Assembly: GCA_027075275.1 (NCBI GenBank)
Contig: JALTBO010000098.1
Location: 14,742 to 63,268 of the forward strand
DNA: 48,527 nucleotides
Origin: Desulfurobacteriaceae bacterium
GTDB taxonomy: Bacteria; Aquificota; Aquificia; Desulfurobacteriales; Desulfurobacteriaceae
Reading direction: 5' to 3'
Every line of letters begins with the position of its first letter. Positions within the stretch are counted from its first letter, which is position 1. The translations under genes were made by a program, and so were the position numbers. Below are positions 20,869 through 25,468 of the stretch, one piece after another. Below the pieces are notes generated by a model. It searched no databases. It saw only the letters and a program-made list of their open reading frames with translations, and was not told the DNA's origin.

Positions 20869-22176
20869 ATGAAAGTCATTAACGTTATAGGTGGAGGACT
20901 TGCAGGGGTTGAGGCGGCTTACAGGGCTGCTAAAGAGGGGAAGAAAGTTCGTCTCTTTGAGATGAGGCCGAAAAAGACAACTCCTGCCCATAAAACCGAC
21001 AAACTGGCGGAGCTGGTCTGCTCAAACACTCTGGGTGGTATAGACATTACAACCCCGAGAGGACTGTTAAAGGCTGAGATGGAGAAGTTGGGTTCTTTGG
21101 TTGTTGAGGCTGCAAAGAAGACTTCCGTTCCTGCCGGGGGAGCTCTGGCTGTAGACAGGGAGAAGTTTGCCGACTACATAACCGAGAAGATAGAGAGTAA
21201 TCCCAACATAGAGGTTGTAAGGGAAGAGGTTGCAGAGATTCCTGAAGAGGGAATAACCGTTGTTGCAACAGGTCCTTTAACCTCAGATAAGTTTTCCCGG
21301 TTCTTGAGGGAATACCTTGGAGAGGAGGAGCTCCACTTTTACGACGCCATTTCTCCCATCGTTTACGCCGATACTATTGACTACTCAAAGTGTTTCTGGG
21401 GCTCCCGTTACGGGAAGGGTGGAGACGACTACCTTAACTGCCCGATGACTGAGGAAGAATACGAGCGGTTTTACAACGCCCTTATGGAGGCTGAAAAAGT
21501 TCCCCTTAAAGACTTTGAGAAGGCCTGCTATTTTGAGGGGTGTATGCCGATAGAGGAGATGGCAGAGAGGGGAAAACAGACGCTGTTGTTTGGTCCTTTA
21601 AAACCTGTTGGCCTTATTGATCCGAGAACCGGGAAACAGCCCTTTGCTGTTGTTCAGCTGAGGAAGGAGAACAGGGAGGGAACCCTTTTAAACCTTGTTG
21701 GATTTCAGACGAAACTTAAATACCCTGAACAAAAAAGGGTCTTCAGGCTCATTCCCGGCCTTGAGAACGCAGAGTTTGCCCGTTACGGAAGCATTCACAG
21801 GAACACGTTTATAAACTCCCCGAAGCTTCTTCTCAGAACCCTTCAGCTGAAGAAGAACCCGAAAGTCTTATTTGCCGGCCAGATTACGGGAGTAGAGGGG
21901 TATCCTGAGTCTGCAGTTACCGGGATAATTGCGGGGCTTAACGCATCAAAGCTCTCCGATGGCGGGGAGCCGGTCTACCCTCCAGAGACTACAATGGTTG
22001 GAGCTCTCCTTAAATACATCACAACAGCAGACCCTAAAACATTTCAGCCAATGAACGCAAACTTTGGCCTCCTTCCACCTCCCGAAAGGAGAATAAAGGG
22101 TAAACTTAACCGTAGAAAATACCTTGCCGAAAGAGCACTGAGGGATCTGGAAAAATGGTTAAGAGAACTTTCCTAA
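20869..22176 (+). CDS. trmFO: Methylenetetrahydrofolate-tRNA (uracil-5-)-methyltransferase
   Basis: A flavoprotein that makes m5U54 in the T-loop of tRNA using methylene-folate. The start is the ATG at 20869 after AAAGGGAGAG, not the upstream ATG at 20794, which overlaps the divergent gene. The protein is ~435 residues. It has the FAD-binding N-terminus [15 protein letters not shown] and the TrmFO signature [20 protein letters not shown], then [25 protein letters not shown] and [20 protein letters not shown] follow, with NANFGLLPP near the end. The LysM gene begins inside its last 22 bp. Identification is secure. Confidence 0.97.
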
Positions 22177-23366
22177 TAGTTTCTTTAATGGCTTCTACAG
22201 TTTACGGTGCAACTTACCAGATAAACGTCATTAAAGAGCAGGTTTCTCCAAAGGTAGAGAAACGATTTGTTCTTTACAAAATAAAAAAAGGGGATACGTT
22301 GTTAAAAATAATGAAACGCTTTAAAATTCCCCGCCGTTTACTCTATAAAGTTGCCAGACTTAACAACATAAAGAACCCGAACTTAATTTACGCTGGCCAG
22401 GTTATAAGGCTTCCTGTAGGAGAGGGAACGTCTGTTGTAAAAACTGCCCGGAAAGTTCCTAAGAGATTGAATGAAGAAAGGGAGCTCCAGCTGATTCAAC
22501 AGCTGGGAGGAAGGGTAAACAGAGACGGTTACCTGTTTATCGGAAGTAGGAAGATTTCATTTAGACAGAATCCACTTGTAACAGTTGGAGAGAAGAGGTT
22601 TCTGATAGATTTTTCAAACCTTCCGGGAAGTGTGAAGAAAGCCCTATCAGAAGTGGGAATTTCGGTTGTAAATGGGAGCTCCCTTAATACCGTTCTTGAG
22701 TCTGCCATCTCTGCCAACTTCTCATCCCTTCAGAGGAACGGAACGCTCATTATGGGAGAGAACGACGTTCTAACTTACCACTACGACTACCTTGCCTACA
22801 ACCGGTTTACAGGTCAGAGAACCGTAATAAACACATCACCCGATACTCCTCCTCCTTTAAAGAACCTGCTCTCTGCCTATGGAATTGCTGTTGTTGAACC
22901 GCAGTTTAAAGTTCCAGACGATAGTGAAGGGTGGGGAGAGCTGAAAATTCTAACTGGAGGGGGATTAAACAAGATTTCTCAGCTTATCTACCTCCTGACA
23001 GGGAAAAAAGGACAGCAAATTCCGGAAGGTATGGTCTTTCCGGATCTAAAACTGGCAGTTGTTTACGATTACATCACTCCCGAAAAGAGAACCGGCTTAG
23101 AACTTCAGGGCTACAAAGTGTTCATTCTTACGGGAAACTTCCTCAGCGATGTAGAGTCAATCCTTTCACTTGTTCCCATGGCAAATAAGTTTGTAAAGCT
23201 TGTTCTCTACGAACCTCCGGGAACTCAAGGAAAAAGGTCAAAGTTTGTTATAGAAGGACTTTTGATCTCCACTCCCAAAAAAGATTGGTTTATGGTAGAT
23301 ACGTTTGATAAACAGGAGGAAATTCCATATCTCCGCTACAGGGGAGTAAACCTGATTGTTTATTAG
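22155..23366 (+). CDS. Secreted LysM-domain protein
   Basis: A 403-residue exported protein. Residues 1-18 are a signal peptide ([17 protein letters not shown]). A LysM domain follows at ~40-90: [20 protein letters not shown], then [20 protein letters not shown] and VIRLPV, which would hold it to peptidoglycan. The remaining ~300 residues are not a family I recognise. They are predicted mixed alpha/beta with no cysteines to suggest disulfides and no obvious catalytic motif. The ATG overlaps the 3' end of trmFO by 22 bp, though the functions seem unrelated. The gene carries two GGAGCTCC octamers. Confidence 0.85.
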
Positions 23367-23439
23367 AAAACTTGATAATAGATGATTTGCTATAATATCG
23401 CTTAAAATTTCCCGCTGTTTTCCTTTCAATTAAAGGGAG

Positions 23440-23465
23440 GAGTGCGGGGTTCAAACCCCGCACTC
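23440..23465 (-). terminator. Strong hairpin terminator after the 18-residue peptide gene
   Basis: Perfect 10-bp stem GAGTGCGGGG / CCCCGCACTC with a 6-nt loop, located 7 bp after the minus-strand peptide stop. On the minus strand it is followed by CTCCCTTTAATT, a weak T-tract. The loop TTCAAA gives it a passing look of a tRNA T-arm, but the loop is 6 nt and there is no acceptor or anticodon arm. Confidence 0.65.
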
Positions 23466-23472
23466 GGTACCG

Positions 23473-23529
23473 CTACTCGTCATCAGGTTGCGGTTTAGGT
23501 TTGGGTTTTCCTTTTCCCCTGCCAGCCAT
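23473..23529 (-). CDS. 18-residue Lys/Pro-rich peptide (not in ORF track)
   Basis: A minimal gene with a near-ideal ribosome site: AAGGAGGTGCCAG then ATG. The encoded peptide MAGRGKGKPKPKPQPDDE has a strikingly regular Gly-Lys and Lys-Pro alternation and an acidic end. It is followed by a strong hairpin terminator and lies 33 bp downstream of a small secreted protein gene in the same direction. The strong SD, exact terminator placement and non-random sequence argue for real expression. I know of no assigned function. A nucleic-acid- or membrane-binding basic peptide is one possibility. Confidence 0.6.
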   Translation of the reverse strand: MAGRGKGKPKPKPQPDDE

Positions 23530-23562
23530 CTGGCACCTCCTTGTAGAGATGTAGAAGAAAAA

Positions 23563-23907
23563 TTATTTTTTACTTTCTGAATTAGATGAGATCTTCGCTT
23601 CTTTCCACAATTTGTGGATCTTTTTGTATAGCTCCTTTTCAGCAATCCTTGCTTTTTTCTTACAGTTCCACAGTTGTTTTGTATCTTTTGCACTCTCTAT
23701 GCAGGCTTTTTCATCTTGGTAGATTTTAATTTCGCCGTTGATTTTTTCCAGTTCTATCTCTTTTCTCTTATCAAAAGAGATAGAGGCGTGTTTTTTGTGC
23801 CAGAACTTGTGTTTATGAACGGTTTCATGTTTAGTTGGTGTTCCAGCAGCAAAAGTGTTTGTTCCTAATAGACTGACGAGTACTGTTAGTAAGAGCCCTT
23901 TTCTCAT
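23563..23907 (-). CDS. Small secreted basic protein of unknown function
   Basis: About 114 residues from the ATG at 23907, chosen because GGAGG sits five bases upstream and a signal peptide begins there (RKGLLLTVLVSLLGTNTFAAG). The ORF-track start lies 28 codons further out, in the promoter. The mature part is rich in His and Lys (KHETVHKHKFWHKKHASIS), then a charged helix with two Cys (EKACIESAKDTKQLWNCKKKA). Those cysteines could form a disulfide in a helical hairpin. The His-rich start could bind metal. A good promoter precedes it. The family is not recognised. Confidence 0.7.
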   Translation of the reverse strand: MRKGLLLTVLVSLLGTNTFAAGTPTKHETVHKHKFWHKKHASISFDKRKEIELEKINGEIKIYQDEKACIESAKDTKQLWNCKKKARIAEKELYKKIHKLWKEAKISSNSESKK

Positions 23908-23938
23908 GTTTACCTCCATTAGTAGTAGTCTTCCTCTT

Positions 23939-23966
23939 AGTTTAGCGCGGTAAATTTTAAAGTCAA
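23939..23966 (-). promoter_or_regulatory. Sigma-70-type promoter for the small secreted protein operon
   Basis: On the minus strand TTGACT (plus 23961-23966) and TAAACT (plus 23939-23944) are separated by 16 bp, about 30 bp ahead of the ATG at 23907. This is the best -35 in the region and would drive the secreted protein and the 18-residue peptide. Confidence 0.6.
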
Positions 23967-24225
23967 TGGGTAAAAATTGCTTATATATCAATACTTTGAG
24001 GAAAGTATCTGCTGGAAAGCTTGAATTTCAATCAGTCTGTATAGGAAAAATGGGTATTTAGATAGTATTTTTTGGAAAAATTGCAACTAATGTTGATTAT
24101 TGATTAAGGAACCCCACTTCTATCTGTTAAGTTTAAAGTGTTTTAATTTAGGAGTACCTATTTTTTCTGTAGAGTTTAGAAGCAACTTTCTTTTAATTGA
24201 GAAACCCTGTTATTTTCTTAACCTT
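23967..24225. other. AT-rich stretch with no gene
   Basis: Together with the promoter this makes ~346 bp without a coding gene between the secreted-protein start and pgk's end. It is markedly more AT-rich than its surroundings, has no ORF with an SD, no GGAGCTCC, and no direct repeat that would suggest a CRISPR remnant. I see no recognisable RNA gene in it. It may hold an unrecognised small RNA or a decayed gene. Confidence 0.5.
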
Positions 24226-24249
24226 AAAGGGGTGGTAAACCACCCCTTT
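24226..24249 (-). terminator. Hairpin terminator after pgk
   Basis: Perfect 10-bp stem AAAGGGGTGG / CCACCCCTTT with a 4-nt loop, lying just past the pgk stop. Its stem begins with A's and ends with T's, so it can serve in either direction. Confidence 0.8.
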
Positions 24250-24253
24250 GAAT

Positions 24254-25468
24254 CTACGCTTTATCTGTAAGTGCCATTACTCCGGGGAGCTCCTTCCCTG
24301 CGAGGAACTGGAGGAAAGCACCGCCGCCTGTTGAAACGTGGTCTATCTCGTGTTCCAGGCCCAGCATCTCAATTGCTGCAACGCTGTCTCCACCACCAAC
24401 TATCCTTAGAGCCTCTTTGTGTTCAGCAACGATCTTTCCTATTGCCATCGTTCCAAAACGGAATTTTTCAAACTCAAATACACCCATGGGGCCGTTCCAC
24501 AGGATTGTTTTGGCGTCTGAGAGGGCTTCTTTAAAGAGCTCAACAGTTGCAGGGCCGATGTCTAACCCCATCATATCGTCTGGAATCTCCTTGTAGGTTG
24601 TAAGCTTTGTGTGGGCATCCTCTGCAAACCTGTCGGCATTGTTGCTGTCTACCGGTATGTAGAACTTAACGCCGTTCCTGTCGGCTTCTTCCATAATCCT
24701 CTTTGCCGTTTCTATAAGGTCGTCTTCAACCAGGGATTTCCCTACGCTGTAGCCGGCGGCCTTTAAGAATGTGTAGGCCATTCCGCCGCCTACAAGCATC
24801 TTGTCAACAATTTTCAGAAGGTTCTCAATTACTTCTAATTTCCCGGAAACCTTTGACCCGCCGATAATGAGAACTAAAGGCCTTTCAGGGTTTTCAAGGG
24901 CCCTCTCCAGATACTTTATCTCCTTTTCTAACAGAAAACCTGCAACTGCAAGTTTTACGAACTTTGTTATTCCGTAGGTTGAGGCGTGCTTCCTGTGGGC
25001 TGTTCCAAAGGCGTCGTTGACGTAGATATCTGCAAGAGCTGCAAGTTTTTTAGCAAACTCAGGGTCGTTTTTGGTCTCTTCAGGGTAGAACCTGACGTTT
25101 TCAAGGAGTGCTACCTCTCCTGGCTGGAGCTCCGCCACACCTTTTTCTGCAACCTCTCCAACGCAGTCTGGAATGAACTTTACCTCTTTCTCAAAAAGCC
25201 TTGAGAGCCTTTCTGCAACTGGCTTAAGAGAGAGCTTCGGGTCCCAGCCTTTTGGCCTGTCTAAGTGGGAGCAGAGGATTACCTTAGCCCTGTGGTCTAA
25301 CAGGTAGTTGATCGTTGGAAGGGCTGCCCTGATGCGCTTGTCGTTTGTGATAACGCCGTCTTCAATGGGAACGTTGAAGTCAACCCTTACAAAAACTCTT
25401 TTTCCCTCAAGCTCCTGTGGAGGAATATCCCTTAAGGTCATCTTTCTGAACATTGCTCTGTAAGGCAT
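24254..25468 (-). CDS. pgk: Phosphoglycerate kinase
   Basis: Interconverts 1,3-bisphosphoglycerate and 3-phosphoglycerate; in an autotroph it would work in gluconeogenesis. The 404-residue protein has the PGK signature RVFVRVDFNVPIEDG near the N-terminus. The substrate-binding RAALPTINYLLD, LCSHLDRPKG, VGGGMAYTFLKA, WNGPMGVFEFEKF and GGGDSVAAIE blocks follow. The start at 25468 has AAGGAGG upstream (10-nt spacer); an internal ATG at 25441 lacks an SD but would give the usual N-terminus. Either start lies within the nadD 3' end (35-62 bp overlap), so the two are translationally linked. Confidence 0.97.
   Translation of the reverse strand: MPYRAMFRKMTLRDIPPQELEGKRVFVRVDFNVPIEDGVITNDKRIRAALPTINYLLDHRAKVILCSHLDRPKGWDPKLSLKPVAERLSRLFEKEVKFIPDCVGEVAEKGVAELQPGEVALLENVRFYPEETKNDPEFAKKLAALADIYVNDAFGTAHRKHASTYGITKFVKLAVAGFLLEKEIKYLERALENPERPLVLIIGGSKVSGKLEVIENLLKIVDKMLVGGGMAYTFLKAAGYSVGKSLVEDDLIETAKRIMEEADRNGVKFYIPVDSNNADRFAEDAHTKLTTYKEIPDDMMGLDIGPATVELFKEALSDAKTILWNGPMGVFEFEKFRFGTMAIGKIVAEHKEALRIVGGGDSVAAIEMLGLEHEIDHVSTGGGAFLQFLAGKELPGVMALTDKA

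Follow-up and report, generated by a model that had tools for sequence, protein, structure and literature searches.

An 18-codon candidate mini-gene between the convergent lysM and pgk genes of a Desulfurobacteriaceae bacterium

The window, which is the whole 48,527-nucleotide stretch of Desulfurobacteriaceae DNA analysed here, contains a very short open reading frame (ORF) between the convergent genes lysM and pgk. On balance we favor the reading that it is a translated, species-specific orphan mini-gene, closing a two-gene unit on the minus strand as its second cistron. The ORF runs from an ATG at 23529 to a TAG ending at 23473 and encodes the 18-residue peptide MAGRGKGKPKPKPQPDDE. Its translation is considered probable from the sequence because of the genome-wide base rates of its Shine-Dalgarno (SD) and ATG arrangement and because of the spacing between its stop codon and the hairpin that follows. 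A first-pass annotation had proposed a complete set of gene parts within 90 bp; the SD, ATG, stop codon and hairpin were all found, and the base rates reported below strengthen the proposal. The strand of the mini-gene, left unstated at that stage, is the minus strand.

Table 1. Features of the lysM-pgk region, with positions in the window
Feature	Position	Strand	Basis or remark
LysM-domain gene (lysM), flanking, conserved in family	22155..23366	+	
Species-specific insert, 36% GC, between lysM and pgk terminator	23367..24225	.	
GC-rich hairpin GAGTGCGGGGTTTGAACCCCGCACTC	23440..23465	.	RNA fold; inverted repeat; stop-to-hairpin survey
18-codon ORF MAGRGKGKPKPKPQPDDE	23473..23529	-	ATG to TAG; stop TAG at 23473-23475
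Perfect 6-bp stem TGCCAG/CTGGCA, start codon in ATGG loop	23520..23535	-	
Shine-Dalgarno AAGGAGGTG, 9 nt	23534..23542	-	GGAGG-to-ATG spacing 6 nt
Small secreted protein, C-x12-C motif, upstream cistron	23563..23907	-	ORF, signal-peptide-like start
Sigma-70-like promoter candidate TTGACT-16-TAAACT	23939..23966	-	Consensus match only, upstream of secreted-protein gene
Hairpin in ancestral position beside pgk stop	24226..24249	.	Same position as the single lysM-pgk hairpin of most genus relatives
Phosphoglycerate kinase (pgk)	24254..25468	-	

Start signal and peptide composition

The SD and ATG of the peptide ORF are of true gene-start quality, and a ribosome binding site is present; the SD of Aquificales has been described as GGAGG-like (PMC4227106). 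The arrangement AAGGAGGT-N4-8-ATG occurs 25 times in the whole genome, with 22 of the sites being gene starts (one of these genes begins from an overlapping GTG), two lying antisense inside genes, and one being the peptide ORF. Further base rates were taken from a survey of 645 kb (44%) of the same genome, comprising 690 genes, called by a simple script that chooses starts by SD strength, and 42.8 kb of intergenic DNA (6.6%). An SD match of at least 9 nt is found in only 15 of these 690 genes. Intergenic ORFs of 8-69 aa with an SD match of at least 7 nt number six in the 645 kb, and the peptide start ranks second among them; the other five were identified by eye as ferredoxin, L34, L30, a 36-aa membrane-like protein and a 64-aa protein, and the last two are plausible small genes. 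In the closest sampled relative, of which 296 kb was covered, the intergenic ORFs with an SD match of at least 7 nt are all at least 46 aa long.

Of 200 simulated 48.5-kb windows, 4 (about 2%, mean 0.025) contained an ATG-initiated ORF 10-50 aa long preceded by a 9-nt SD match, and simulation of the insert alone gave a 9-nt SD ORF in none of 5000. Scaled to the 1.48 Mb genome, chance alone is expected to provide about 0.8 sites with SD and ORF anywhere, and the weight of the argument therefore rests on the intergenic position.

The peptide is a basic Lys-Pro sequence with an acidic tail and a net charge of about +2. From this composition it is expected to be disordered, and its activity, if any, would most likely be weak electrostatic binding to nucleic acid, to the envelope or to its secreted neighbour. 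Of the six frames the proposed one has the highest codon log-odds, a comparison over just 17 codons. Within the repeat, the Pro codons vary at the wobble position (CCC, CCT, CCG, CCT) with Lys-Pro retained, which is a weak and post hoc point, and the Lys-Pro run could derive from simple AAACCN tandem composition. Lys-Pro-Lys-Pro is matched at the DNA level at a second site of the genome (contig C119, L291), within an open stretch of 38 codons whose sequence differs.

The hairpin, the upstream cistron and the species-specific insert

The hairpin had been described as a perfect 10-bp structure 7 bp past the stop codon. Its distance from the TAG is indeed 7 nt (spacer 23466-23472), but the structure is longer, with 11 bp and a 4-nt loop as RNA, or 12-nt arms separated by a 2-nt gap as an inverted repeat. 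The fold energy of the region is 4.5 standard deviations below that of shuffles. The lysM stop is 73 nt away from the same hairpin, and the stop of the secreted-protein gene 97 nt. For called genes that have an intergenic hairpin no more than 200 nt away, the genome median for the stop-to-hairpin distance is 9 nt, and when the hairpin at 23440-23465 is excluded, 19 of the 21 other gene stops with a nearby hairpin have it at 20 nt or less. The spacing thus fits the peptide stop, giving independent, if post hoc, support for the 18-codon ORF as the real end of the translated part.

A GC-rich 11-bp stem after a stop codon, as looked for in an intrinsic terminator, is present; no clear T-run was seen on either side of it (the tail reads CTCCCTTTAATT), and a terminator scan did not match it. 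The hairpin probably acts as a common terminator for the converging transcription units. Transcription may stop there although the structure departs from the canonical intrinsic type, because the hairpins between the convergent genes of its genus relatives also have no T-run. Comparison with Rfam gave nothing near threshold, the Yfr1 family scoring 21.3 bits against a cut-off of 38, and a search of the window for tRNA and tmRNA genes found none.

The secreted-protein gene stops 33 nt ahead of the peptide ATG. It had been annotated as a small secreted protein with its own promoter; the ORF with its signal-peptide-like start stands, while the promoter is a consensus match at background frequency, three such matches having been found against 1.8 +/- 1.3 in shuffles. 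The protein has no name in Pfam, NCBIfam or PADLOC. Distant relatives are present in other families of the class, with a best E value of 1e-5 (one genome) at about 29% identity; the query began at 23910 rather than 23907, and its one extra N-terminal codon has a negligible effect. The C-x12-C motif is common to the protein and these relatives, and in several genomes a response regulator and a kinase then follow. None of the relatives inspected is followed by a comparable peptide gene. The minus-strand gene at 23563-23907 in the window and those of L038, L039, L042, L044, L049, L051, L053 and L056 make up a family of secreted proteins of ~100 aa with a conserved C-x12-C motif, which in several genomes of the class is encoded directly upstream of a two-component response regulator and kinase. 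Its members appear to be periplasmic accessory or sensor proteins. A perfect 12-bp inverted repeat with an 8-nt loop also lies inside the secreted-protein coding sequence, at 23753-23784.

A full-length LysM gene is present in 21 of 22 family genomes. In the five other genomes of the genus lysM and pgk are direct neighbours, with one short hairpin between them in four and the genes almost abutting in the fifth (L014). In most of these relatives the hairpin immediately adjoins the lysM stop, and inspection by eye shows no T-run; its counterpart by position in the window is 24226-24249, beside pgk. Since the relatives' lysM and pgk are neighbours without the segment, 23367-24225, with the secreted-protein gene, the peptide and the hairpin, is an insert so far seen in this species only. 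Its edges carry no convincing target-site duplication, the repeat D2 (19 nt, 74%) being weak, and no sign of phage genes was seen in the immediate flanks (LysM, secreted protein, pgk). The convergent lysM-pgk hairpin itself (24226-24249 in the window; L006-L009) keeps its position and shape among genus members and differs in sequence.

Searches for the peptide returned only itself. A search of 101 genomes, 100 of them those of other relatives, gave no other match besides a chance one of 54% inside a larger ORF, and a degenerate SD-plus-peptide pattern allowing three mismatches found only the query across 136 phylum genomes, among which five belong to the same genus. A pattern scan of the genomes of about 85,000 species, which may leave out the window's own genome, gave 18 matches, all with other tails and mostly at the starts of longer proteins, and no relative. 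PADLOC had no match for the peptide, which was submitted as a tandem duplicate because of the length limit. The first-pass annotation had let its proposal depend on the peptide being conserved in close relatives; such conservation was not found, and the hairpin and the whole segment are likewise absent from them. Because the whole locus is missing there, with no decay, the missing peptide neither shows selection nor disproves a gene. By sequence the peptide is a species-specific orphan.

Translation model and competing explanations

An SD of this strength is typical of full-length genes, and the species-specific insert has the ORF at its edge. Both would suit a truncated or decaying gene start, in which the SD and first codons are a remnant, the remainder was lost at the insert boundary, and initiation may still occur and yield an inert peptide; N-terminal low-complexity Lys-Pro is also common in longer proteins, for example phage ORFs starting MAQRGRKPKPT. 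We regard such a remnant as unlikely, given that no longer protein with the same beginning was found in the genome or in relatives and that random truncation does not predict a hairpin at the usual distance past the stop. The same hairpin bears on the proposal that the ORF arose by chance in the 3' untranslated region of the secreted-protein gene, with the terminator hairpin as the sole functional element: its spacing fits the peptide stop and not the secreted-protein stop. The genome-wide expectation of roughly 0.8 sites, the two sites of the same pattern that lie by chance antisense inside genes and the absence of any conservation seen for the peptide are all in line with a chance ORF. Chance sites should mostly hit coding DNA, however, with only 6.6% of the surveyed DNA being intergenic, and the 5000 insert simulations gave no comparable ORF, so that we hold a chance origin to be distinctly unlikely.

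The start codon of the peptide is enclosed in a stem of 6 bp with a 4-nt loop, whereas the maximum in 269 other genes is 5 bp. In the folding model the SD is paired at 37 C, with an accessibility of 0.03-0.07, and is about half open at 75-80 C, reaching ~0.6 at 80 C; the SD region is predicted to be able to pair either 5' or with a CUCC beyond the hairpin. Translational coupling was considered and rejected, as masking a ribosome at the upstream stop left the predicted accessibility unchanged. In gene content and genome size the host organism and its relatives look like Desulfurobacteriaceae (Aquificota) and are hence probably heat-loving. By this model a thermophile could use the start site at its growth temperature; the stem-loop could also be a temperature or protein switch. 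Such a switch forms part of another explanation, that the ORF is a cis-acting translated element whose ribosomes alter the stability of the 3' end or read-through into lysM antisense RNA. The unusually large start-codon stem, the modelled opening with temperature and the 7-nt stop-to-hairpin distance, which sets a terminating ribosome onto the stem, agree with this. We nevertheless judge it very improbable: a short stop-to-hairpin distance is normal in the genome, the SD remained closed in the model with the ribosome mask, and there is no same-strand gene directly downstream, so that an attenuator or leader peptide would have no target.

If the ORF is, as we favor, a translated mini-gene closing a two-gene unit, transcription would begin upstream of the secreted-protein gene and cross both cistrons, and the near-perfect SD would load ribosomes onto the peptide ORF independently of the upstream gene, from a start site predicted to be folded at 37 C and sufficiently open in a thermophile. 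Translation would stop 7 nt short of the hairpin, which would halt transcription in both directions. Several points count against this reading: searches of the locus, the genus, the phylum sample and the genome contigs gave no homologue; the stem around the start codon surpasses those of all 269 genes compared, with the SD paired at 37 C in the model; and the promoter match stays at chance level and the hairpin is without a T-run.

Comparison with other very short ORFs

Intergenic small ORFs and microproteins of bacteria have been catalogued as the ismORF class, with 15-70 codons (Fesenko et al., PMC11188072). The peptide ORF is like them in length, intergenic position, unstructured composition and the lack of an assigned function, but the catalogue (PMC11188072) consists of families under purifying selection, whereas the peptide ORF is a single sequence with an unusually strong SD. 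With leader peptides and attenuators it shares a very short ORF, a strong SD and a hairpin directly after it; it differs in having neither a same-strand gene directly downstream nor a stretch of codons all specifying one regulatory amino acid. A role of this type was rejected, the next gene being lysM on the opposite strand with no same-strand gene directly downstream.

Lys/Pro/Gly-rich mini-ORFs of phages, such as L146 MARKPKPKPKPKPGGGY, L127 MAKPKGPKKPKPVKQPKGY, L128 MAHYGKPKPKKKPRKPKKK and L081 MAGKGKGKGKGKGGGRRKY, resemble the peptide in their 14-22 aa, strong SD, MA start and alternating Lys-Pro or Gly-Lys, a likeness of composition only, in phage ORFs chosen by pattern. They sit in phage gene clusters, whereas the peptide ORF lies beside pgk and lysM. 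ORFs of this kind, 14-30 residues long, Lys/Pro/Gly-rich and with a strong SD, recur on unrelated phage contigs (L080, L081, L127, L128, L146, L149 and L153), and some abut or overlap the next gene. To our knowledge they are undescribed as a class, a narrow literature search having given no match. A bolder proposal is that the ORF is a new or de novo functional 18-residue Lys-Pro microprotein, co-expressed with the C-x12-C protein, with a heat-opened start stem and possibly kin to the phage mini-ORFs; we think this quite improbable.

The study of the peptide points to recurrent Lys/Pro/Gly-rich mini-ORFs in phage genomes. It also suggests that in this genome a strong SD together with stop-to-hairpin spacing sorts plausible tiny genes from noise. 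If it is translated, the 18-codon ORF would be a clean, species-specific example of a mini-gene too short for gene callers, with every one of its signals intact.
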